From Bacteroidales bacterium (GTDB lineage Bacteria; Bacteroidota; Bacteroidia; Bacteroidales; VadinHA17), in NCBI GenBank assembly GCA_021163295.1, contig JAGGXD010000201.1:1-32054 (forward strand): a DNA stretch of 32,054 nucleotides. The letters are read 5' to 3'. The first letter of the stretch is position 1; each line of letters opens with the position of its first letter. The notes beneath the pieces are model-generated. The model was not told the DNA's origin and searched no databases. It saw only the letters and a program-made list of their open reading frames with translations. The position numbers and the translations under genes were made by a program. Shown here in pieces: positions 2,787 to 18,287 of the stretch.

Positions 2787-2819
2787 AAAAACCCTGATCT
2801 TTTCCGATCAGGGTTTTTT
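2787..2819. terminator. Probable bidirectional rho-independent terminator (tRNA on + / efflux operon on -)
   Basis: aaaaaccctgatc-ttttcc-gatcagggttttt: 13-bp stem with an A tract 5' and a T tract 3'; lies between the tRNA and the end of the minus-strand operon. Confidence 0.85.
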
Positions 2820-3601: not shown

Positions 3602-6600
3602 TTAATTGGTTGCCACAGTCATATCATTAAGCAGGCACAGGTATGCATCTTCAAGCATGGGCACTGCCGGTTCTGCCTCTTTGACGGGCTTCTTTTCAGA
3701 GATCATCCTGATTTTTATTTGATCCCCGTCCCGTATATGGGATACAATGTGCTGTTTGTTTTCCAGCTTTTCAAATTCTGAAGCCGGTACTTTAAAATGC
3801 CATACCAGTCCTTTCGCCTGCTCAGACATTTTATAAGGAGTTCCGGTGTACTTAAGCAAACCCTTATTAATTACTGCAACATTATTGCATGAACTGGAAA
3901 TATCTTCAATGATATGTGTGGAAAACAGCACGATACGCTCACGCCCCAACTCAACCAGCAAATTCCTGAATCGTATCCGTTCACGTGGATCAAGTCCTGC
4001 CGTTGGCTCATCCACCACCAAAATCCGTGGAAGGTGTATCAATATCTGGGCAATGCCAATCCGTTGTTTCATTCCTCCTGAATAGGAGCCTATTTTTTCA
4101 TTCCGGTGCCTGTACATTTGTACCGATTTAAGAACATATTCCAGGCGTTCGTAACGCATTTTACGATCATTAAGACCTTTTAAAATGGCTTGATAGTCCA
4201 GGAATTCCCAGGAAGTCATTTTTTCGTATGTGCCAAATTCCTGTGGCAGGTACCCGATAAGTCCCTGCAGCTCTTCTCTTTTTTCGAGAGTGTCGAAGCC
4301 ATTGATCCATATTTTTCCATAACTCTGGTCCAGGATACCACAAACAATGCGCATCAACGTTGATTTCCCGGCACCGTTGGGTCCGAGTAAACCATACATC
4401 CCTGTTCCAATATCGAGGGATACACCACTCAGTGCTTTAAAAGCTTCGTTTTGTTTTCCAATAACCGGAATTTGTTTTATAAGTCTGAAGAACCCCCTTC
4501 TCATTCCACCGAATTTTCCGGTAATACGGTCAATATTTACTTGTTCACTGTATAATACTTTTGAAATAGCGTACACTCCAAGTCCGCAATACCACAAAAC
4601 AGCCACTGTAATTACCATACCAATGTTATCCCAGTTAGTATAAAACCATACCAGGTTTATTGTGGGGATACCCCAAAGAAGGATTTTGTAAATAACCCGG
4701 TTTATCCGGGCGAATAATTTTTTCCCTGACGATTTTCTTTTATTCTCAAGGAGTTTTGAGAATGGTAAATAAAGTATAAATACAAACAGATGCACTAAAA
4801 CAGTAAGTACAACGATCCACAAATTGGATTCCAGGTAGAAATAGGTAAAGAAAATCAGGAAGCCGAAGAGCAGACTTTGCCATATAAGATCATTGAAGTC
4901 GCGAGCCCGGGTATATTCCTTTTCCAGCCCAATTCTTTTCCTGATCTTTTTCCCGCTTTTCCATTCCCTTTTGAATCTCGATTCTCTTTCGTAGATTTTC
5001 ACTAAACTTTGAATTTTAATAGACATAGGGTCGTCGTCAGAGATCAATTTTACCGAGGCTTTACGCAGGCTGGTCAGGACAAACCAGGTGCCTCCTGGTA
5101 TCAGGATAATAAGGAGTACATATAATATAAACTGCCATAAAATCGCATCTATTTTAAGATAGATTAAAACCGCCCCGGAAATCATCAGAACCAATTGAAA
5201 CAATTTTACTTTGCCGCTCAATTGACGAAACCAAATTATGCTGTTTTCCATCCCGAAATAAAAAGTTGGTATAAAAACCAGTGTCAGGATAGTACTCATT
5301 GTAAGTCCGCCAATGACCGTAATAGCAAAAGGGGCTCCGATCAGGCTAACATATTCTGCCTTTCCCATTGCCAATGGAAACATTGCAACAATTGTGGTTA
5401 TGGCTGTGATGAGTATAGGTCTTACTCTGGAAATGCCGGCAGCCATAAGAGCTCGTTCTTTACGATAACCTTGCTTTTGCATCATCCTGGCAAAATCAAT
5501 CAAAATAATGCCATTGTTTACAACTATTCCCAACAAGATTACAAAACCGGTAAGTGTATTGGCATTGAACAGACTGTTCCCTGTTAAAATTAAGGCAATC
5601 AGCGATCCTATTGCTGCCAGGGGAATGGAAAACATGAGCACAAAAGGTGTGGAAACCGACTCGAAAACAGCAGCCAGGATCATGAGTATCAGAAGAAAGG
5701 CTGCTCCTATCAGAAAGTAAAAATCGTGGAACAAATTTTCCTTATGTATTACTTCAACTGCAACACCGCCTGGCAGATTATACCCGGCAACAATATCATC
5801 TATTTCATAGCGGTAAGCTTCAAGCAGGTCTTTTGATTTTTCCGCTTCGCTAATAAAGGAGTAGGTTAGTTCAATCTGTTTTTCCTGGTTAACCCGGTTG
5901 ATACCAAAGAGACCGTTAGCAAAAACCAGATCAGATATCGTCTGAAGATCATGCACACCTCCTTGCTGATCAGGGATCTGTAGCTGTTTTAAATCCGTGA
6001 TCGTTTTTTCATTTTCCTCTTCCGTATCTGAGCTCCCTTTCTCTTTGATAATTATATCATACTCTTCAGTTCCCTGTTTAAATTGCAGTCCTGAAGAAAA
6101 TTCTTTTGAGAATGAGCTCAATTCAGATGATATACTATTTAGTCCTATACCATATTCAGCCATTAAAAGCTGGTTGAACCAGATTTGCACCTCGGGATTA
6201 TTATCGGAAATATTCAGGGAAGTTTCGTCTATAGATTCCAGATTATCGATATAATATTGAAGATCTTCGGCTACGCCTCGCATTACCTTAAAATCCTGCC
6301 CTTTTATCAGGATCCTTTCCTGTGAAGATCCAATTCCAAGAAATTTTTCGAAAGCCAAACCTGGATTATTTCCGGAACCCCGAAAACTCTTGCTGGAAGG
6401 AGGCGGTGTAAAGCTTATCTCGGCTGTAGAAATATTCTCAAGGTCGCCTTCCACAGCTTCTTTTACTGTTTCCAGATTTCGTCCGTTTATTTCTTTAAAA
6501 TCTTTCTGAAGCTTGAGGGTGAGTATAGCCTCTTCTTCTCTGATCTGACTAAGCAAATCCTTTTTTTCTGCCAGATCAGTTAGCCTGTTTTCAACTTCCA

Positions 6601-8323
6601 TCACTACCTTATCTGTGATTTGCAGTCCGGAGCCTGCCGGCATAGTCACATATATTTGGAATTCATCGTTTTCAACCTCGTTCAGGGAATTTACACTTAT
6701 AGCCATACTAACGATAATGGAGACAAAGAAAATAACAATGGCTCCAATTATGGTTCTGGCCGGGTAGCGCATGCTGGCTTTAAGAAGGACAATATAGATC
6801 TGGATGATACGGTTGTTTGTAGATACTTTTTCGAAAAATATTGTTTTACTGCTTCTTGCCTTCAACAAGAAATGAGTGGACATGGGAATCAGTAGTAGGG
6901 CAACGAACAGCGAAACTGTAAGGGTGGAAATGATGGATATACCTATATGGTTCCCCATAATTCTAACCATGAAATTAGAGGAAAAGAGAAACGGAAAAAA
7001 AACAACTATTGTGGTAATTGTTGCTGCCAGTATTGGGCGAAGAACTTCTTTTGTTCCTCTGATAACAGCCTCATTGGGCGAAAGCTTTTGGGCTGAAAGC
7101 CGGTAAATATTTTCAAGTACTACAATACTGTTGTCCAACAACATCCCTATGGCAAGTGCCATTCCAACCAGGGTTAATGTGTTTAAGCTGATGTTGTTCC
7201 AGTAGAAAAAGTTAAATGCAGTAAATACTGATATTGGTATGGCGAGTGCGATGAATGATACGATTCGTAGATTTTTCAGGAAGATCCACAACATGAATAT
7301 AGCCAGAACACCACCTATCAATGCGAGATTTATAATCTGGTTGATGTTTTTTTCCATTATCTCTGCAGAATTGCTCTGAACAACGATCTCTATATCTTTT
7401 TGCTTATACTTTTTGTTTAATTCCTTAAGGAGAGCTACTGTTTTGTGCGATAAGTCAATAAGATTGGCCTGCGAGTCATTGATTACCATTACCGTTACTG
7501 CGTCTTTGCCATTTACACGGCTCAGCGTGGTTTCTTCCTTAACGCCGAAATATATATCGGCTATGTCTTCCAGTAACACCGGACCGGGTGCAACAATAAC
7601 CTTTTCAATATCAGTGATTTTCTCATATTCGGCCTGCACATGTACAAAATATTGTTTGGCAGACTCGTAAATATGGCCAACGAAAGTTCTGTTCTGGTTG
7701 TTGCTTCTCAGTGCCGCAGAAATATTTGCCGGGGTGATATTATAGGCTTCACAGGCTTTTTTATCAAATCTTATTTCGATAGTTTTCTCATGTCCTCCAT
7801 ATACATTTACATTGGCAATACCGTCAGTGTTCTCAAGCTCCGGAACAATGTTCTGGTCGGCAAAATTTCTGACTCTGTCTGTGCCTCCGCCACCTCTAAC
7901 TTGCAGCTCCATAAATTGGTTATCCATTTGCTGGAGGTCAATTTTTGCTACATTGACAAAGAAATTATCAGGCAGGGAAGATTTTACCTGATTTATTTTT
8001 TCTTCGAGTCGCAGGAAAATGTATTTTGAGTTAACATTATCTTTGAAAGTTACAATGATGCTGGCCTGACGGGGATTAACGTAAGATTCAATATTATCAA
8101 TACCTTCCATGGTACCAATGGCTCCTTCCAATGGTATCACTGCCTGGTTTTCAACATATTCAGGATCTGCTTCAATAGTTGAATTAACCTGGACAAATAA
8201 AATTGGTAATTCAGCATTTGGATATAGCTCAACGGGTAATTGTTTATAAGAGACATATCCCAGAAGGGTAAGTCCGATAAACAACATACTGATGAGTATT
8301 TTCCTTTTTATTATAAACTCCAT
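3602..8323 (-). CDS. RND efflux permease fused to a C-terminal ABC transporter ATPase domain through an extra ~6-TM region
   Basis: Single 1573-codon ORF. Residues ~1-1035 are a complete RND permease (MLLDNSIVVLENIYRL; GIVVNNGIILIDFARMM; RPILITAITTIVAMFPLA). About 250-260 aa with three hydrophobic hairpins follow (~4465-5210). Then a full ABC ATPase: Walker A GPNGAGKST (~4356-4396), YSGGMKQRIGIAQ signature (~4045-4085), Walker B ILVVDEPTAGLDP (~3991-4034), FSTHI H-loop. Confidence 0.95.
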   Translation of the reverse strand: MEFIIKRKILISMLFIGLTLLGYVSYKQLPVELYPNAELPILFVQVNSTIEADPEYVENQAVIPLEGAIGTMEGIDNIESYVNPRQASIIVTFKDNVNSKYIFLRLEEKINQVKSSLPDNFFVNVAKIDLQQMDNQFMELQVRGGGGTDRVRNFADQNIVPELENTDGIANVNVYGGHEKTIEIRFDKKACEAYNITPANISAALRSNNQNRTFVGHIYESAKQYFVHVQAEYEKITDIEKVIVAPGPVLLEDIADIYFGVKEETTLSRVNGKDAVTVMVINDSQANLIDLSHKTVALLKELNKKYKQKDIEIVVQSNSAEIMEKNINQIINLALIGGVLAIFMLWIFLKNLRIVSFIALAIPISVFTAFNFFYWNNISLNTLTLVGMALAIGMLLDNSIVVLENIYRLSAQKLSPNEAVIRGTKEVLRPILAATITTIVVFFPFLFSSNFMVRIMGNHIGISIISTLTVSLFVALLLIPMSTHFLLKARSSKTIFFEKVSTNNRIIQIYIVLLKASMRYPARTIIGAIVIFFVSIIVSMAISVNSLNEVENDEFQIYVTMPAGSGLQITDKVVMEVENRLTDLAEKKDLLSQIREEEAILTLKLQKDFKEINGRNLETVKEAVEGDLENISTAEISFTPPPSSKSFRGSGNNPGLAFEKFLGIGSSQERILIKGQDFKVMRGVAEDLQYYIDNLESIDETSLNISDNNPEVQIWFNQLLMAEYGIGLNSISSELSSFSKEFSSGLQFKQGTEEYDIIIKEKGSSDTEEENEKTITDLKQLQIPDQQGGVHDLQTISDLVFANGLFGINRVNQEKQIELTYSFISEAEKSKDLLEAYRYEIDDIVAGYNLPGGVAVEVIHKENLFHDFYFLIGAAFLLILMILAAVFESVSTPFVLMFSIPLAAIGSLIALILTGNSLFNANTLTGFVILLGIVVNNGIILIDFARMMQKQGYRKERALMAAGISRVRPILITAITTIVAMFPLAMGKAEYVSLIGAPFAITVIGGLTMSTILTLVFIPTFYFGMENSIIWFRQLSGKVKLFQLVLMISGAVLIYLKIDAILWQFILYVLLIILIPGGTWFVLTSLRKASVKLISDDDPMSIKIQSLVKIYERESRFKREWKSGKKIRKRIGLEKEYTRARDFNDLIWQSLLFGFLIFFTYFYLESNLWIVVLTVLVHLFVFILYLPFSKLLENKRKSSGKKLFARINRVIYKILLWGIPTINLVWFYTNWDNIGMVITVAVLWYCGLGVYAISKVLYSEQVNIDRITGKFGGMRRGFFRLIKQIPVIGKQNEAFKALSGVSLDIGTGMYGLLGPNGAGKSTLMRIVCGILDQSYGKIWINGFDTLEKREELQGLIGYLPQEFGTYEKMTSWEFLDYQAILKGLNDRKMRYERLEYVLKSVQMYRHRNEKIGSYSGGMKQRIGIAQILIHLPRILVVDEPTAGLDPRERIRFRNLLVELGRERIVLFSTHIIEDISSSCNNVAVINKGLLKYTGTPYKMSEQAKGLVWHFKVPASEFEKLENKQHIVSHIRDGDQIKIRMISEKKPVKEAEPAVPMLEDAYLCLLNDMTVATN

Positions 8324-11439: not shown

Positions 11440-12501
11440 CTACTTAATCACCTTTACTTTCGACCGGTTTCTAAGAGTTTCAAATCCTTTAGTTACAAGG
11501 CGATCATTTAAAGAAAGTCCTTTTAAAACTTCAGCTTTTTCCTGGTTTTCAAGTCCAATAGTTATTTCCCGCTGGAAAGCGGTGCCTTGTTCTACAACAA
11601 ATACTTTTTTACCGGTTGGACTGGAAAGGATAAGATCTTTACTAATAACAATAGTACTATCCTTGCTCCTGATAATGATATCAGCATTTACAAACATTCC
11701 GGGTTTAAGCTGGAGTAAGGGATTATTTATCAGTATTTTTCCTTTGAAAGTGCGGGTTTCTGTATTAATTGCCGGGGAGAGCTCATGGATCTTCCCGCTC
11801 AGTGTATCTTCCGGCAATGTGTAATTTGTTATTCTCACCGTCTGACCCGGTTTAACTGTTGACAGATACTTTTCGGGCAGGTTTGTTTCCATATACATCT
11901 TTTTATAATCAAGCAATTCCATCAGCATATCTCCTGTATTAATCCGGGTACCCGGTGTGAAATAAGGCAGGTCTACAATTACACCGGCAATGGGAGCCTT
12001 AATGCTCATCTTATCCAACATTAATTGTGCATTCCTGTAATCATATTTTGCATTGATAAAGGAGACTTCCGCATTTCGCATTTCGCGAAGTGTAACACCT
12101 CCCTTGTCAAAAAGTGATTTTTGTTTTTCATGTTCCTGCTGCGATATTTCAAGGTTTAACCTTTTTGATTCTATGGCAATATTGTTTTCATATTCCTTAT
12201 CCTCAAGGCGTATAAGTGTTTGTCCTTCTTTCACTTTATCACCTAATTTATATGGCTGTCCTGTTGTTGGATTGGTCATTAGTTTGTAATGGCCGGTAAT
12301 TTCTGCTTTTATCTCTGCTTTGCTTAGAGCCATTGCTGTACCTGTGGTATTTACATATTCCTCAATTGCCCCGGCTTTTATTTCCATAGTGGATACAGGA
12401 ATAGCAAGATCTGTTTCTGTTTTATCATCCGACCTGTTGCAGGAAGTGATAGTTAGCAGGCCAATAATTAAGATTGAAAGATTTGTAAGAAGTTTCATCA
12501 T
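11440..12501 (-). CDS. RND efflux periplasmic adaptor (membrane fusion protein), predicted lipoprotein
   Basis: 353 aa; lipobox-like LTITSC; barrel-sandwich and hairpin pattern (KEGQTLIRLEDKEYE ... IKAPIAGVIVDLPYFTPGTRINTGDMLMEL ... LKPGMFVNADI). Confidence 0.95.
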   Translation of the reverse strand: MMKLLTNLSILIIGLLTITSCNRSDDKTETDLAIPVSTMEIKAGAIEEYVNTTGTAMALSKAEIKAEITGHYKLMTNPTTGQPYKLGDKVKEGQTLIRLEDKEYENNIAIESKRLNLEISQQEHEKQKSLFDKGGVTLREMRNAEVSFINAKYDYRNAQLMLDKMSIKAPIAGVIVDLPYFTPGTRINTGDMLMELLDYKKMYMETNLPEKYLSTVKPGQTVRITNYTLPEDTLSGKIHELSPAINTETRTFKGKILINNPLLQLKPGMFVNADIIIRSKDSTIVISKDLILSSPTGKKVFVVEQGTAFQREITIGLENQEKAEVLKGLSLNDRLVTKGFETLRNRSKVKVIK

Positions 12502-12529: not shown

Positions 12530-14017
12530 TTATTTTTCTTTAAACAACTCTTCAGGTATTAAAGGTTTTTTATTAACAAAATCGTATAGTGTTTGAATTT
12601 TTAAATTCAGTAATTCAATTTTATAGTTGATAAGAGCCTGGACATAAGCCGTTTTCTTTCCAGACAGCTGAGTTTGATAAAGATTAAGATCCATGCCTGT
12701 CAGATCACCGTTCTGGTATCGTTCAAGGTTGATCTCGTATGTAAGCTGAGCATTTATTTCGTTTTGTTTAGCAATTTCAATTTGATTTTGCTGGTTGATC
12801 AGGTTTCTGTAAACTTTGCGGATATCAATAATAATTTGCTTTTTTTCCTCAGACAGATTTAGCTCCTGGGTTTGGACAACTGCCTCCTGGGCTTTAATGC
12901 GTGCCTCTCGTTCTCCCCAGTCAAATATCGGTATGTTAAACGAAACAGCTACCCTTGGGTTTTGAGTGGGGTTATTGTAGATGTCTGTGAAGTTTTCATT
13001 ATCGCCGGTTAAACCAATGGATAATTCCATATCTCCCCTGAACTCATTCAGGGCCTTAGTTCGGATTAGCTGAAACTGCGAAGATTGCAGGTCAATTTCA
13101 CGTTGTCGCAACTCCATTCTTGAGTTTAGCCCATAATTCACGGCTTTCTCCATGTCCACTTCAACCGGTGAAGTAGTGATGTCGGCTGCAATGAGTATTT
13201 CCTCATACAGGTCCATGCCCAGGAAGCGGATAAACTCGTCTTTAGCATTTTCAAGGGTTACCTCCTGATTTTGCAGACTTGATTTGGCTGTAGCCAGGTT
13301 TAACTCAGCCTGGTAGAGTTCTTCTCTTGCTGCAAGTCCGGCATCCACTTTGTTTTTAATTATCGAATAACTTTCCTCTGTATTTTCCAGCTCTTCCTGT
13401 GCAATAGTCAGATTCATTTGGGCCATATATACATTATAAAAGAATTGTGTTACATTTTTTTCAAGATTAAGTTCTTGAAGAGTATAGCTTATATGTGCAT
13501 TTTCGTAAGCCAGCTCAATTTCTTTCAGATCCAGTTTTGTTTGGTTGTATGTAAACAAAGGCTGGTTAAGACTCAGGTATAAGTAGTTAATAAATGATTC
13601 ATTATCGGATTGAACATTTTGAAAATCAGATTTGCTTTTTTGCCATCTAAGATTATTAACAAGCGATAATGTACCATCAGAGAACGGAATGCGCTGGTCA
13701 ACCCTGAATGTACCGGATGTCCTGAATGATTCGTTCGTGTACCATTCTGAGAACCGGGTGTCAAACTGCCGGGTTTTGCTGTATTCTGCCGGGGTTAGAT
13801 TGAACCTGAATTGTGATTTCTGGGAAGCTTTTTGTGCATTCAGCGACTCCCTGTAACGTTGGAGGTTCAGCATAGATATTTTAATATCAGGACTGTTAAC
13901 GCCGGCAATATCAATCGCTTTTTCGAGTGTAATCAAAGTTTGTGCCGGTAGAGTTAATGTCATTAGGGAAAGTGTGAACAAGATAACAGATCGCACTATT
14001 TTTTTTTCAGTACTCAT
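12530..14017 (-). CDS. TolC-family outer membrane efflux protein
   Basis: 495 aa; signal peptide, long helical repeats typical of TolC/OMF (LEKAIDIAGVNSPDIKI, QAELNLATAKSSLQNQEVTLENAKDEFIRFLG, VAVSFNIPIFDWGEREARIKAQEA). Confidence 0.95.
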   Translation of the reverse strand: MSTEKKIVRSVILFTLSLMTLTLPAQTLITLEKAIDIAGVNSPDIKISMLNLQRYRESLNAQKASQKSQFRFNLTPAEYSKTRQFDTRFSEWYTNESFRTSGTFRVDQRIPFSDGTLSLVNNLRWQKSKSDFQNVQSDNESFINYLYLSLNQPLFTYNQTKLDLKEIELAYENAHISYTLQELNLEKNVTQFFYNVYMAQMNLTIAQEELENTEESYSIIKNKVDAGLAAREELYQAELNLATAKSSLQNQEVTLENAKDEFIRFLGMDLYEEILIAADITTSPVEVDMEKAVNYGLNSRMELRQREIDLQSSQFQLIRTKALNEFRGDMELSIGLTGDNENFTDIYNNPTQNPRVAVSFNIPIFDWGEREARIKAQEAVVQTQELNLSEEKKQIIIDIRKVYRNLINQQNQIEIAKQNEINAQLTYEINLERYQNGDLTGMDLNLYQTQLSGKKTAYVQALINYKIELLNLKIQTLYDFVNKKPLIPEELFKEK

Positions 14018-14028
14018 GTTTTTTAATA

Positions 14029-17000
14029 TTATTGTTTAACAAATTTTATTGCATCTGCAACTACAACACGACTCTCTGAATTGTTTGTCAGCTCAACAAT
14101 TGCTGTATCAGGAGAAAAATAGTAGGAGCCGAGGTGGTTCCAGCCTGTTTGATCATTATTCAGCGAGAGAACCGGCTCGTCGGTTCCGTTATTATGATGA
14201 ATTACAAATTGGTATTCCCCCTTAGGTTTATCTTTTGACCGTCTCTGTTGTACATTTTCAATATAATAGTAAACATCATAATAAGCGGTTTCTTTTATTG
14301 GTACTTTCCAAATGGCTTTCCGGTCGCCTGATCCTGACCTTACATAACTGGCAGAACGGATATATTTACCATAAAATGAAGAGTTTGTTGTGGGGGTCCA
14401 GTTAATGGGTGCCCGCCAGGTTCGAAAGCCGGTATATTCTACATCGGATTCATCAGGAGGGAATAAAAGTTTAATTAACAAACCTTCACTCTCGGGCTGG
14501 ACCACAGAAAACTCAGGGTCTTCATTATCGATAATGATCTCATTTTCTTCTAAATTTCGAACAGGATTATCAGTTAACCTTTCATATTCCACCGATTGTA
14601 TCTTGAAATTATCTTCAAGTTTCGGAAAGTTTTTTGTAATTGTAGATGGAATATTTTTGGATGTCAATGTATGGATTGTCATCATTCGGGGATCATTATC
14701 GAATAAATAGCTAAGCTCCTTGGTTTGTCCCTTCTCCAGATAAATCACTTTTTCAACCGTATTATCCTCTTCCTCTTTACCTCCCTGGAATCTGCCTCTT
14801 CCCCTTCCCCTTCCACCTCCCTGGGAGCTCAATCTGAATCGTATCTTTATTACTCCATCAGCGTTTTCTAAATTAGACACTTTAAACTGAACCATGCTAA
14901 GAATCCGCTCGCCATCTTTCACGTTTTTTCCAATAATCGGACTGAATAAAAAACCCGGCATCTGAATACCGCTGAACCAGTTATCCATGTATTGGTTTAG
15001 ACTAAGGTTAAATTTTTCGTAAAGTTTTTCATTGAATTCTTTAAAACTGACTTTCCGGTAAAGATTTTCGGTAAAAAAATCATACAGGAACTTGTCAAAC
15101 TCTTCCTGTCCTGCTTTTGTTTTAATAATAGAGAATAAAACTTCGCCCTTTAGTTTAATTATATTATCAATAATTGTTTTTTGTTCCTTATCCAGCAACA
15201 ATTCACTAAAGCTTTTATATTGTAATGCCATGTTAGCTTTTTCATCTTCACTAACACCGGTAAAATCTCGCATCCATGTAAAGCGCTCATCTGAATTTGA
15301 GCTTTGAAGATAAGCTTCTACAATTCTGTTTATTATAGGCCAGTTTTCTGATTCGATATAGTTTGAGAAGTTGTAAAAAATTGGAAAAATAAAATAGTGA
15401 TTGAGTGTTTCTTCCGGTTGCCAGGTGCCCCTTCCACTACCTCTTTGCCAATTGGGTCGTCCCATTTCATTTATAAACAGGTTACAGAAATCGTTCAGGG
15501 CACGCACCTGGTATTGTTTATCTGTAGAACTTTCTTTAGACCATTTCGACCACCGTTTAAATTTTTTCACCTGTCCCTTAAAATCAACTTCCTGGGTTAG
15601 TAAACCTTTTTCAGGAAAGAAAATGATCTCGGGCTGCACGATCCCGAATCCACTTGACCAGATATGATTGTACGAGGCAAACTGAACAGGTGTTTCAACA
15701 ATACTAAACCGGGAGAATGGGTAGCTAAGGTTAATATTTCGCTGGTAGTCCTCAAACCGCTCAAATATTATCGCGGTGATAGTATCTTTTATTTCCGGCA
15801 GGGATCCGGAAAAAAAGTCGTGGCCTGTTTTATAATATACACTGAATTGAATATTGTTTGTGTCAATAGTTATTTTTTCATAATCTCCTATGGCAAGCGA
15901 TATTTGCGGCAGAGGGTGCTCCGGGGAAAACATCCATCCATTTTCTTTTTCCAGTATTTTCCCCTGGGAGACGGGAATAATATTGTGACTTGTTTGAACA
16001 TCCAGTGTAAATTCCGTAAAATCTTTGTGTAGCCAATTGGGGTTGGTTGAGCTGTATGTCACACCACTCTTTGGGTACCAGCCTGTTTCCTGGGTCAGCA
16101 ATACATATTCAGGGGAGATAAAACTGTACTTTTTGGGAATATTAAATATATCCGGTCCGTATTTTGTTTGACGTGTCTCTTCGTCAATATCAAGATAACA
16201 ATATGACTCAATAATATTGCCCCTGTATTTAATGGTTAGTTGAAATGTATCGGCAGAAGAAATTTCCCGGCCGGGTTGTATGATTATCAAATGTTGTTTT
16301 CGTAAATACTCAAGTTGATCTGTACCGGAGTGAATTGATTCAACTACAAGCCCCGGATTCAGGTTTAGAATAATTTCATCTGCAGATGAATTATTATTGT
16401 TTTGAAGTGTGATCTTTGAATCCACTTCAATAGTTTTACCGGTATGCTGCAAAGAAATATTATGACGTGTGATATCAAAAACCGGCTCAGAAGCATACCG
16501 GTTGTTGAGAGAAATGATAGAATCACGGGTTTGTTGATCGTGCTGGAATCTTTGGATATGGTTGTTCATGAGACCGATACTGAATGCAATAGCCAATATG
16601 CCAAAAATTAGCGATACATAATTCATGCCCTTTGATTGGGGTAGTCTTTTTAGGAGAAAAACAGTTAGAGAAATAAATCCGAGACCAAGAAAAAAATAGA
16701 TACCCCGGTGAACCAAAATTTCATTCAAATTACTAAAGCCTACAAATTCCGATTTCATCAGGGGGATATTGAAAGCCATGTAATCAAAGAGGTAGTACAC
16801 TTTGGTTTTCAGGTAAAAAAGTGTGAGGGCAATATAGCCAAGAAGCAGGATAAATGTAATAGCCTGGTTCCTGATGATGCTCATTAGCAGAAAAGATGCA
16901 CCTAAAATGAACATAAGAGTAGGAAGGCTGATAAGTAGTAAGTAGTAAATGTACGCCATAAAATCGGTTTCATGACCCTTAACAGCCATATTAAATATCA

Positions 17001-17388
17001 GCGCCATGAGCAGTACGATAAAATTAATTGCAAAGAAAACAACTAAATTGCCTACGGTTTTTCCAATAACATAATCTCCGTTAGTCATCGATCGCATATA
17101 AATTACCTCGGTGGTGTCCAGTTTTTTATCCCGTTTCAGAAAATCGGAAGCAAGAAAGACTGCGATTATTGCCTGCGCTACATTTAAAATTAGCAGATTA
17201 GCATAAGGAATACCTGCTGGAATAGCCACGATATTCCATTCCGGACCTTCAATGTTGGTCTGCGTCATCAGATTAAAGAAAAACAGAACGACCAGGGATA
17301 ATATTCCGAAAATGCGAAAAAACCAGCTGCGGGAGAGCGTTTTTACCTCGTATTTTGCAATGGAACGGATATGATATATCGAGATCAT
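14029..17388 (-). CDS. ABC-2-type permease fused to an M1-peptidase-like (degenerate) ectodomain and a golvesin-like C-terminal domain
   Basis: 1119 aa; N-terminal ABC-2 TM bundle, additional TMs, then an M1-like beta-rich region lacking HExxH, a Gly/Arg-rich stretch, and a C-terminus WNHLGSYYFSPDTAIVELTNNSESRVVVADAIKFVKQ resembling golvesin-like domains. Start overlaps the upstream ATPase stop by 4 bp (ATGA). Confidence 0.8.
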   Translation of the reverse strand: MISIYHIRSIAKYEVKTLSRSWFFRIFGILSLVVLFFFNLMTQTNIEGPEWNIVAIPAGIPYANLLILNVAQAIIAVFLASDFLKRDKKLDTTEVIYMRSMTNGDYVIGKTVGNLVVFFAINFIVLLMALIFNMAVKGHETDFMAYIYYLLLISLPTLMFILGASFLLMSIIRNQAITFILLLGYIALTLFYLKTKVYYLFDYMAFNIPLMKSEFVGFSNLNEILVHRGIYFFLGLGFISLTVFLLKRLPQSKGMNYVSLIFGILAIAFSIGLMNNHIQRFQHDQQTRDSIISLNNRYASEPVFDITRHNISLQHTGKTIEVDSKITLQNNNNSSADEIILNLNPGLVVESIHSGTDQLEYLRKQHLIIIQPGREISSADTFQLTIKYRGNIIESYCYLDIDEETRQTKYGPDIFNIPKKYSFISPEYVLLTQETGWYPKSGVTYSSTNPNWLHKDFTEFTLDVQTSHNIIPVSQGKILEKENGWMFSPEHPLPQISLAIGDYEKITIDTNNIQFSVYYKTGHDFFSGSLPEIKDTITAIIFERFEDYQRNINLSYPFSRFSIVETPVQFASYNHIWSSGFGIVQPEIIFFPEKGLLTQEVDFKGQVKKFKRWSKWSKESSTDKQYQVRALNDFCNLFINEMGRPNWQRGSGRGTWQPEETLNHYFIFPIFYNFSNYIESENWPIINRIVEAYLQSSNSDERFTWMRDFTGVSEDEKANMALQYKSFSELLLDKEQKTIIDNIIKLKGEVLFSIIKTKAGQEEFDKFLYDFFTENLYRKVSFKEFNEKLYEKFNLSLNQYMDNWFSGIQMPGFLFSPIIGKNVKDGERILSMVQFKVSNLENADGVIKIRFRLSSQGGGRGRGRGRFQGGKEEEDNTVEKVIYLEKGQTKELSYLFDNDPRMMTIHTLTSKNIPSTITKNFPKLEDNFKIQSVEYERLTDNPVRNLEENEIIIDNEDPEFSVVQPESEGLLIKLLFPPDESDVEYTGFRTWRAPINWTPTTNSSFYGKYIRSASYVRSGSGDRKAIWKVPIKETAYYDVYYYIENVQQRRSKDKPKGEYQFVIHHNNGTDEPVLSLNNDQTGWNHLGSYYFSPDTAIVELTNNSESRVVVADAIKFVKQ

Positions 17389-18287
17389 AATGCTTGAATT
17401 ATTTCTCTGGTTTCCTGTTTGTTTTCCATAAAATGAATGTATGCATGCTCCAGGTTAGGATCGATTTTTTTTGCCCTGAAATCGTTTAGTTTGTCGGCAA
17501 CAACCTGTATTTCCCAACCACCTTCAACAGGAATACTGGAAACAACAGGGTATCTTTTATTCAGTTCAAGGTAATCTTTTTCATTTGCTTGCACAAGCCA
17601 GACATGCCCTTTGGTTTGTTGGATAAGTGTGTCGGGTGGACCTGAAAACACCAACTCCCCCCGGTCGAGCAAAGCCATTTGATTACATGTGCTTGAAATA
17701 TCCCCTACAATGTGAGTGGAAAGGATGATGATAATATCTTTTGTACTCATTGTTGAGAGCAGGTTTCTGAATCGTATCCTTTCCTCGGGATCGAGGCCGG
17801 TAGTAGGTTCATCAATAATTATGATTTTTGGCTCATTTATAAGTGCCTGTGCAATACCAAGCCGCCTTTTCATTCCACCCGATAGTTTGCTTGCTTTACG
17901 GTCCCGGGCTTCAAATAAACCAACTTCTTCGAGCATCTTTTCCACGGCAATGTTCCGGCTGTGGCGGTTTTTCATGCCGGATAAGCGGGCGGCATAATCC
18001 AGGAATTCAGAGGTGCGTAATTTTGAAAAAAAGCGAAAATCCTGTGGAAGATAACCCATCATAGCACGTATCTCTTTACGGTTTTTAATCAGGTCCAGTT
18101 GATTTACTTTTACCTGACCTGTGCTTGGTTTCATCAGTGTAACCAGAATTCTCATCAGGGTTGATTTTCCGGCACCGTTCGGACCAAGTAATCCAAACAT
18201 TCCGTTCTCAATGTTCAGGGTTACCTCTTTCAGGGCATTGTTTCCGTTCCGGTAGGTCTTACCCAGATTTTCAATTGTTATTTCCAC
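17385..18287 (-). CDS. ABC transporter ATP-binding protein
   Basis: 300 aa; GLLGPNGAGKSTLMRIL Walker A, KLSGGMKRRLGIAQ signature, IIIIDEPTTGLDPEERIRF Walker B, STHI H-loop. Confidence 0.97.
   Translation of the reverse strand: MEITIENLGKTYRNGNNALKEVTLNIENGMFGLLGPNGAGKSTLMRILVTLMKPSTGQVKVNQLDLIKNRKEIRAMMGYLPQDFRFFSKLRTSEFLDYAARLSGMKNRHSRNIAVEKMLEEVGLFEARDRKASKLSGGMKRRLGIAQALINEPKIIIIDEPTTGLDPEERIRFRNLLSTMSTKDIIIILSTHIVGDISSTCNQMALLDRGELVFSGPPDTLIQQTKGHVWLVQANEKDYLELNKRYPVVSSIPVEGGWEIQVVADKLNDFRAKKIDPNLEHAYIHFMENKQETREIIQAL

Follow-up and report, generated by a model that had tools for sequence, protein, structure and literature searches.

The window analyzed here, a stretch of 32,054 nucleotides from a Bacteroidales contig, carries a gene for what is most likely an RND permease of 18 TM helices whose C-terminus bears an ATPase of the ABC-2 class (Table 1). 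Combining sequence comparison, structure prediction and gene context, we favor, at a probability of roughly 60%, a reading in which this RND pump and its tethered ATPase, the latter predicted to be interrupted by a membrane insertion, would form part of a single TolC-dependent exporter encoded by a seven-gene operon.

Table 1. Features of the RND::ABC fusion gene and of the operon that contains it, with positions in the window.
Feature	Position	Strand	Basis or remark
Strong terminator-like hairpin, 13-bp stem	2787..2818	(-)	Immediately follows the final operon gene
ABC-2-type permease, 236 aa	2855..3565	(-)	No Pfam match; AF2 fold like NosY/PmtCD/ABCG
RND::ABC fusion gene, 1573 aa	3602..8323	(-)	Single open frame; architecture repeated in 100+ loci
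Remaining NBD (motifs intact) and C-terminal extension	3605..4435	(-)	Pfam, alignment, Foldseek to ABC-2-type NBDs
NBD insertion, residues 1112-1296, with TM15-TM18 and three basic stretches (predicted)	4436..4990	(-)	Alignment, PSSM, AF2
TM15-TM18, residues 1142-1163, 1169-1188, 1214-1233 and 1240-1258 (predicted)	4550..4900	(-)	AF2, homologues
NBD strand 1 and A-loop, MSIKIQSLVKIY, residues 1100-1111 (predicted)	4991..5026	(-)	ATPase alignment, PSSM, AF2
TM13-TM14 hairpin, residues 1041-1084, link from RND TM12 to NBD (predicted)	5072..5203	(-)	AF2 and homologue alignment
RND permease domain, residues 2-1023	5255..8320	(-)	PF00873 match
Second, ordinary RND permease, 1033 aa	8338..11439	(-)	Pfam
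Periplasmic adaptor, HlyD/MFP family	11440..12501	(-)	Pfam
TolC-type outer membrane factor	12530..14017	(-)	PF02321
ABC-2 membrane domain, M1-peptidase-like domain without HExxH, and C-terminal Golvesin_C	14029..17388	(-)	
Free ABC ATPase	17385..18287	(-)	Nearest in the genome to the fused NBD

Organization of the fusion protein

The PF00873 match of the fusion (E 9.5e-168) covers profile positions 3-1018 of 1021, as in a full-length HAE-type RND (AcrB/AcrD/AcrF) whose ACR_tran domain has two porter repeats and 12 TMs, and PF00005 (ABC) is matched at residues 1299-1442 (E 8.3e-26). Automated family searches score the gene best as an RND permease, and proteins of this kind are therefore easily overlooked. 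The order shown by alignment and by the AF2 model is predicted to be RND TM1-12, TM13-14, NBD strand 1 with the A-loop, TM15-16, TM17-18, and the remaining NBD, and it is read from one open frame at all full-length loci except a few frame-broken draft contigs.

The sequence-only reading had counted six TM segments between the RND domain and the PF00005 match, and this count and the coordinates given with it are confirmed: a fragment model of moderate quality (mean pLDDT 72, pTM 0.46, 21-sequence alignment), in which the RND helices are poorly modelled because the remainder of the RND domain is missing, places helices at residues 1037-1057, 1061-1090, 1140-1163, 1167-1199, 1203-1230 and 1234-1259. 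All six segments remain hydrophobic throughout 94 homologues. The basic loops described earlier were also found across these homologues, with mean net charges of +7.5, +4.2 and +8.8 in the cytoplasmic loops, as compared to -0.8, -0.4 and 0 in the periplasmic ones. This positive-inside pattern agrees with the expectation that an even number of helices would keep the ABC domain in the cytoplasm, and the NBD is thus predicted to be on the cytoplasmic side.

Placement of the last four helices is better seen by comparison with the free ATPase of the operon. The start of that protein (EITIENLGKTY) aligns with IKIQSLVKIY of the fusion, residues 1102-1111 at 4991-5020 of the window, between the second and third extra helices. 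When scored with a PSSM built only from 16 operon ATPases, the strand-1 stretch is the single best site in 94/94 fusion tails, with a mean of 18.0 bits versus 1.7 for the next-best site; shuffled linkers score a mean of -0.5 and a maximum of 9.5. Because strand 1 and the A-loop come after helix 2 but before helix 3, helices 3 to 6 fall inside the ABC domain. Walker A lies a median of 214 aa from the start of the strand in the fusions, but for the free ATPase of the window this distance is 34 aa, and therefore about 180 aa appear to have been inserted between NBD strands 1 and 2. In the AF2 model, residues 1102-1108 form a strand and no further strand occurs before residue 1301, so this strand must pair with the NBD. 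Alignment and model together indicate that the last four helices are a membrane insertion of about 180 residues within the NBD, splitting strand 1 from strand 2. The six helices had been described earlier as one block joining the RND and ABC domains; the helices themselves are real, but the block is divided by strand 1 of the ABC domain, which follows helix 2.

Two variants of the fusion were observed. At one locus (L041:13037-17644) the NBD insertion is shrunk to about one TM hairpin and an even TM number is kept, so half of the insertion appears to be dispensable in nature with the topology retained. At another (L040:1665-6584) an extra Ser/Asp-rich stretch of about 30 residues lies between the A-loop and TM15, from which it appears that this cytoplasmic loop tolerates insertions.

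The ATPase motifs are strongly conserved, with the A-loop Y1111, Walker A K1320, Q-loop Q1361 and signature S1415 present in 94/94 homologues and the Walker B D1438, catalytic E1439 and H-loop H1470 in 93/94. Judged by these residues, the fused NBD appears catalytically intact. The loop residues LVKIY and R/W/G around the insertion are also invariant. The fused NBD is 46% identical to the free ATPase of the operon (next in the genome, 41% and 38%), and because neither of the two has a closer relative in the genome, they may well have arisen by duplication, to which this relationship points. By fold, Foldseek matches the fused NBD to ABC-2-type NBDs, NosF and LptB. GldA and DrrA are the best NCBIfam ABC matches and lie under the cut-off, the scores relevant to GldA being 174.8 and 206.8 bits versus a cut-off of 402.6. 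A link to defence systems was considered and rejected, as the PADLOC matches were generic ATPase hits only.

The AcrB-type proton relay consists of D407, D408, K940 and T978, with Lys940 essential. With the TM4 register set by alignment to MdtF, Asp397 in TM4 is invariant in the 94 fused RND homologues, and the position of AcrB D408 is Asn in 90/94. With registers assigned by motif rather than structure, the position of AcrB K940 is Asn936 (TM10) in 94/94, and Thr977 in TM11, tested as the counterpart of AcrB T978, is invariant. Proton coupling by the fused RND is uncertain because Asn occupies the D408 and K940 positions. The second RND of the operon, only 27% identical to the first, also has Asn at the Lys940 position in TM10, and this residue may simply be the norm of the RND subfamily.

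The operon and its distribution

The genes of the operon run in the order ATPase, ABC-2/pseudo-M1/Golvesin protein, TolC, adaptor, RND, RND::ABC, and ABC-2 permease. This order is collinear in 109/109 fusion loci up to the point where the contig or the retrieved stretch ends. All seven genes are present in 20 of the 109 loci as well as in the window, and six genes in 63 more, where the 10-kb flank mostly ended before the ATPase gene. Gaps between the open frames are small, with medians of 4-28 bp, and only a few draft contigs among the fusion loci have split frames; one of the 109 loci has an extra RND gene 2.4 kb upstream. As in other tripartite exporters, an adaptor and an outer-membrane factor are encoded with the pump. 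Among the 20 complete loci, no flanking gene that might hint at a substrate recurs in more than two. The hairpin after the last gene is the best of 14 found where 12.9 are expected by chance overall, and as a possible intrinsic terminator closing the operon it is individually suggestive only.

The gene directly downstream of the fusion encodes a permease with a predicted ABC-2 fold, and so the NBD would have a ready partner in trans. This 236-aa family has no match in Pfam or NCBIfam. Its AF2 model (pLDDT 85) finds the membrane domains of NosY, PmtCD and ABCG in Foldseek, with probabilities of 0.97-0.99 for the best nine matches at E values of about 0.2-0.4; with an E value of 0.16 at a probability of 0.99, the ABC-2 assignment is based on fold and context. 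The family is strongly conserved, with invariant FYP, QxDxD and Q-RExF motifs. In the ABC-2/pseudo-M1 protein the HExxH motif is missing in 16/17 full-length copies, and the one remaining HETKH lies C-terminal to the expected M1 site. Relatives in the Cytophagales retain HEVAH. The M1-like domain looks like a former peptidase turned periplasmic binding domain.

Fusions with open frames were found in 22/197 other genomes of the order, which argues that the six-helix observation is not due to chance. Among close relatives the count is 20/59, the distribution being patchy even inside the genus, and single cases occur in other families and in another class of the phylum. A GTDB pattern scan returned 337 related stretches; of the best 80, all but one, which is labelled Chlorobiota, bear titles of Bacteroidota or of one of its subgroups. 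The seven-gene unit is an accessory cassette, either old or horizontally spread. One Draconibacterium MAG carries two copies of the cassette (L048 and L056).

A proposed mechanism for the exporter, and its alternatives

We propose that TM13-14 return the chain to the cytoplasm after RND TM12, and that the NBD would then start with the A-loop strand, exit into the membrane as TM15-18 at the turn between strands 1 and 2, return, and be completed. Most likely, the inserted helices would hold the NBD against the membrane beside the RND TM bundle. So positioned, the fused NBD would power the adjacent ABC-2 permease, and the free paralogous ATPase and the ABC-2/pseudo-M1 protein probably act together with it; either one heteromeric or two homomeric ABC transporters could be built from the two NBDs and the two ABC-2 permeases. 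A substrate drawn from the membrane or the cytoplasm would be carried by the ABC part, either within the inner membrane or out of it, and handed on to the RND/adaptor/TolC conduit, such that one exporter would draw on two energy sources, ATP and the proton gradient, with the coupling between them inferred. As a caveat, the symmetries of an RND trimer and an ABC dimer have no simple match. A heterotrimer of the two RNDs containing two copies of RND::ABC, a speculation modelled on MdtBC, would join exactly two NBDs.

Two of the alternatives concern what the gene is. The contig belongs to a draft assembly of 272 contigs, in which a chimera or frame error might have joined two genes, but the same architecture is found at more than 100 loci of other genomes, including those of the isolates Maribellus luteus and Prolixibacter bellariivorans; these homologues refute an assembly artefact, the probability of which we regard as negligible. 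The six helices had also been suggested to be a cryptic ABC membrane domain, in which case an RND pump would be fused to a complete ABC half-transporter. The number of helices, the NBD that comes after them, and the size of the segment, which fits an ABC-2 or type IV half-transporter, would all suit such a domain. Profile comparisons do not support it: the linker profile shows no similarity to the ABC-2 permease of the operon (hhalign probability 0.5%), its alignment matches no PDB chain by sequence, and among the Pfam matches of all 21 linker members there is no ABC membrane family, nor any family that two or more members match. Foldseek with the whole fusion tail, linker and NBD together, gives matches dominated by the NBD. 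The helices are moreover broken 2+4 by a strand that the NBD itself appears to contribute, the L041 protein does without about one inserted hairpin, and separate ABC-2 permeases, two of them in the operon, are always encoded alongside the fusion. We therefore consider a cryptic membrane domain improbable. The other earlier suggestion, that the module is novel, holds by sequence, as the helices are unlike anything in Pfam or PDB.

The remaining alternatives concern what the NBD does. It could act on the RND directly, with ATP binding or NBD dimerization gating or resetting the RND cycle via the inserted helices. The covalent tether and the four helices beside the A-loop would fit mechanical coupling of this sort, the ATP-site residues are invariant, and the Asn in TM10 at the AcrB Lys940 position could mean that the proton relay is altered. 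This Asn is shared by the partner RND, however, an ABC-2 permease gene always adjoins the fusion, and the closest relatives of the NBD serve ABC-2 permeases, so that we judge direct action on the RND to be unlikely, if less so than a membrane domain in the linker. It might also be that the NBD serves chiefly as an assembly tag anchored in the membrane and that the fusion merely co-localizes two independent exporters sharing TolC and the adaptor. Fusion of neighbouring genes is common in evolution, and both the NBD motifs and the full RND domain are intact. Such a tag would leave the conserved NBD insertion and its invariant loop residues unexplained, as well as the fact that more than 100 loci never show two separate genes, and we think there is little chance that it is correct. 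The single exporter containing an RND pump and a tethered ABC-2 ATPase is the reading that we prefer. Whether it further represents a new kind of exporter, in which one covalent subunit would carry both the proton-driven pump and an ATP-driven motor wired into the membrane through four helices, so that a single TolC-dependent machine couples ATP to proton-motive force, is a tentative idea that we hold to be possible but would not bet on. A conserved RND and ABC subunit in a fixed seven-gene cassette makes the combination of ATP and proton energy in one exporter testable, and an NBD interrupted next to its A-loop by four membrane helices, if true, would be an unusual way of anchoring an ABC motor.

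Comparison with known systems

Every part of the RND::ABC cassette belongs to known families. In current usage, tripartite pumps of the RND and ABC kinds are kept apart as classes that draw on different energy sources, and the parts of a 2021 review available to us likewise handle the two as separate transporter families (PMC8277102). No description of an RND/ABC fusion was found in the literature searched, including a search on ABC permeases and M1 aminopeptidases, an absence that is weak evidence given that subscription papers lay largely outside it. A search of plasmids for the fusion returned only free relatives of the NBD. Among these, ATPases on plasmids of the Cytophagales Hymenobacter and Spirosoma share about 41-45% identity with the fused NBD and are adjoined by ABC-2 and M1 genes, as in the operon; no RND, TolC or adaptor genes are nearby, and their M1 protein retains HEVAH, unlike that of the operon.

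MacAB-TolC resembles the window operon in combining an ATP-driven inner-membrane part, an adaptor and TolC in one system. It differs in having no RND, and the NBD of MacB is uninterrupted and fused to its own TM domain, which has four TM helices. As presented in sections of the same review, this NBD is also N-terminal, unlike the C-terminal, interrupted NBD of RND::ABC (PMC8277102). Like the window operon, MdtABC-TolC has an adaptor, TolC and a pair of unlike RND permeases. To our knowledge, it lacks both ABC genes and a C-terminal ATPase. The MdtBC pump is described in that part of the review as a heterotrimer (PMC8277102). The NosFY, GldA-type and PmtCD systems share with the operon their class of NBD and a small ABC-2 permease. 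In these systems the NBD and TMD are separate proteins, whereas the NBD of the window is fused to an RND permease and appears to be split by four TM helices.
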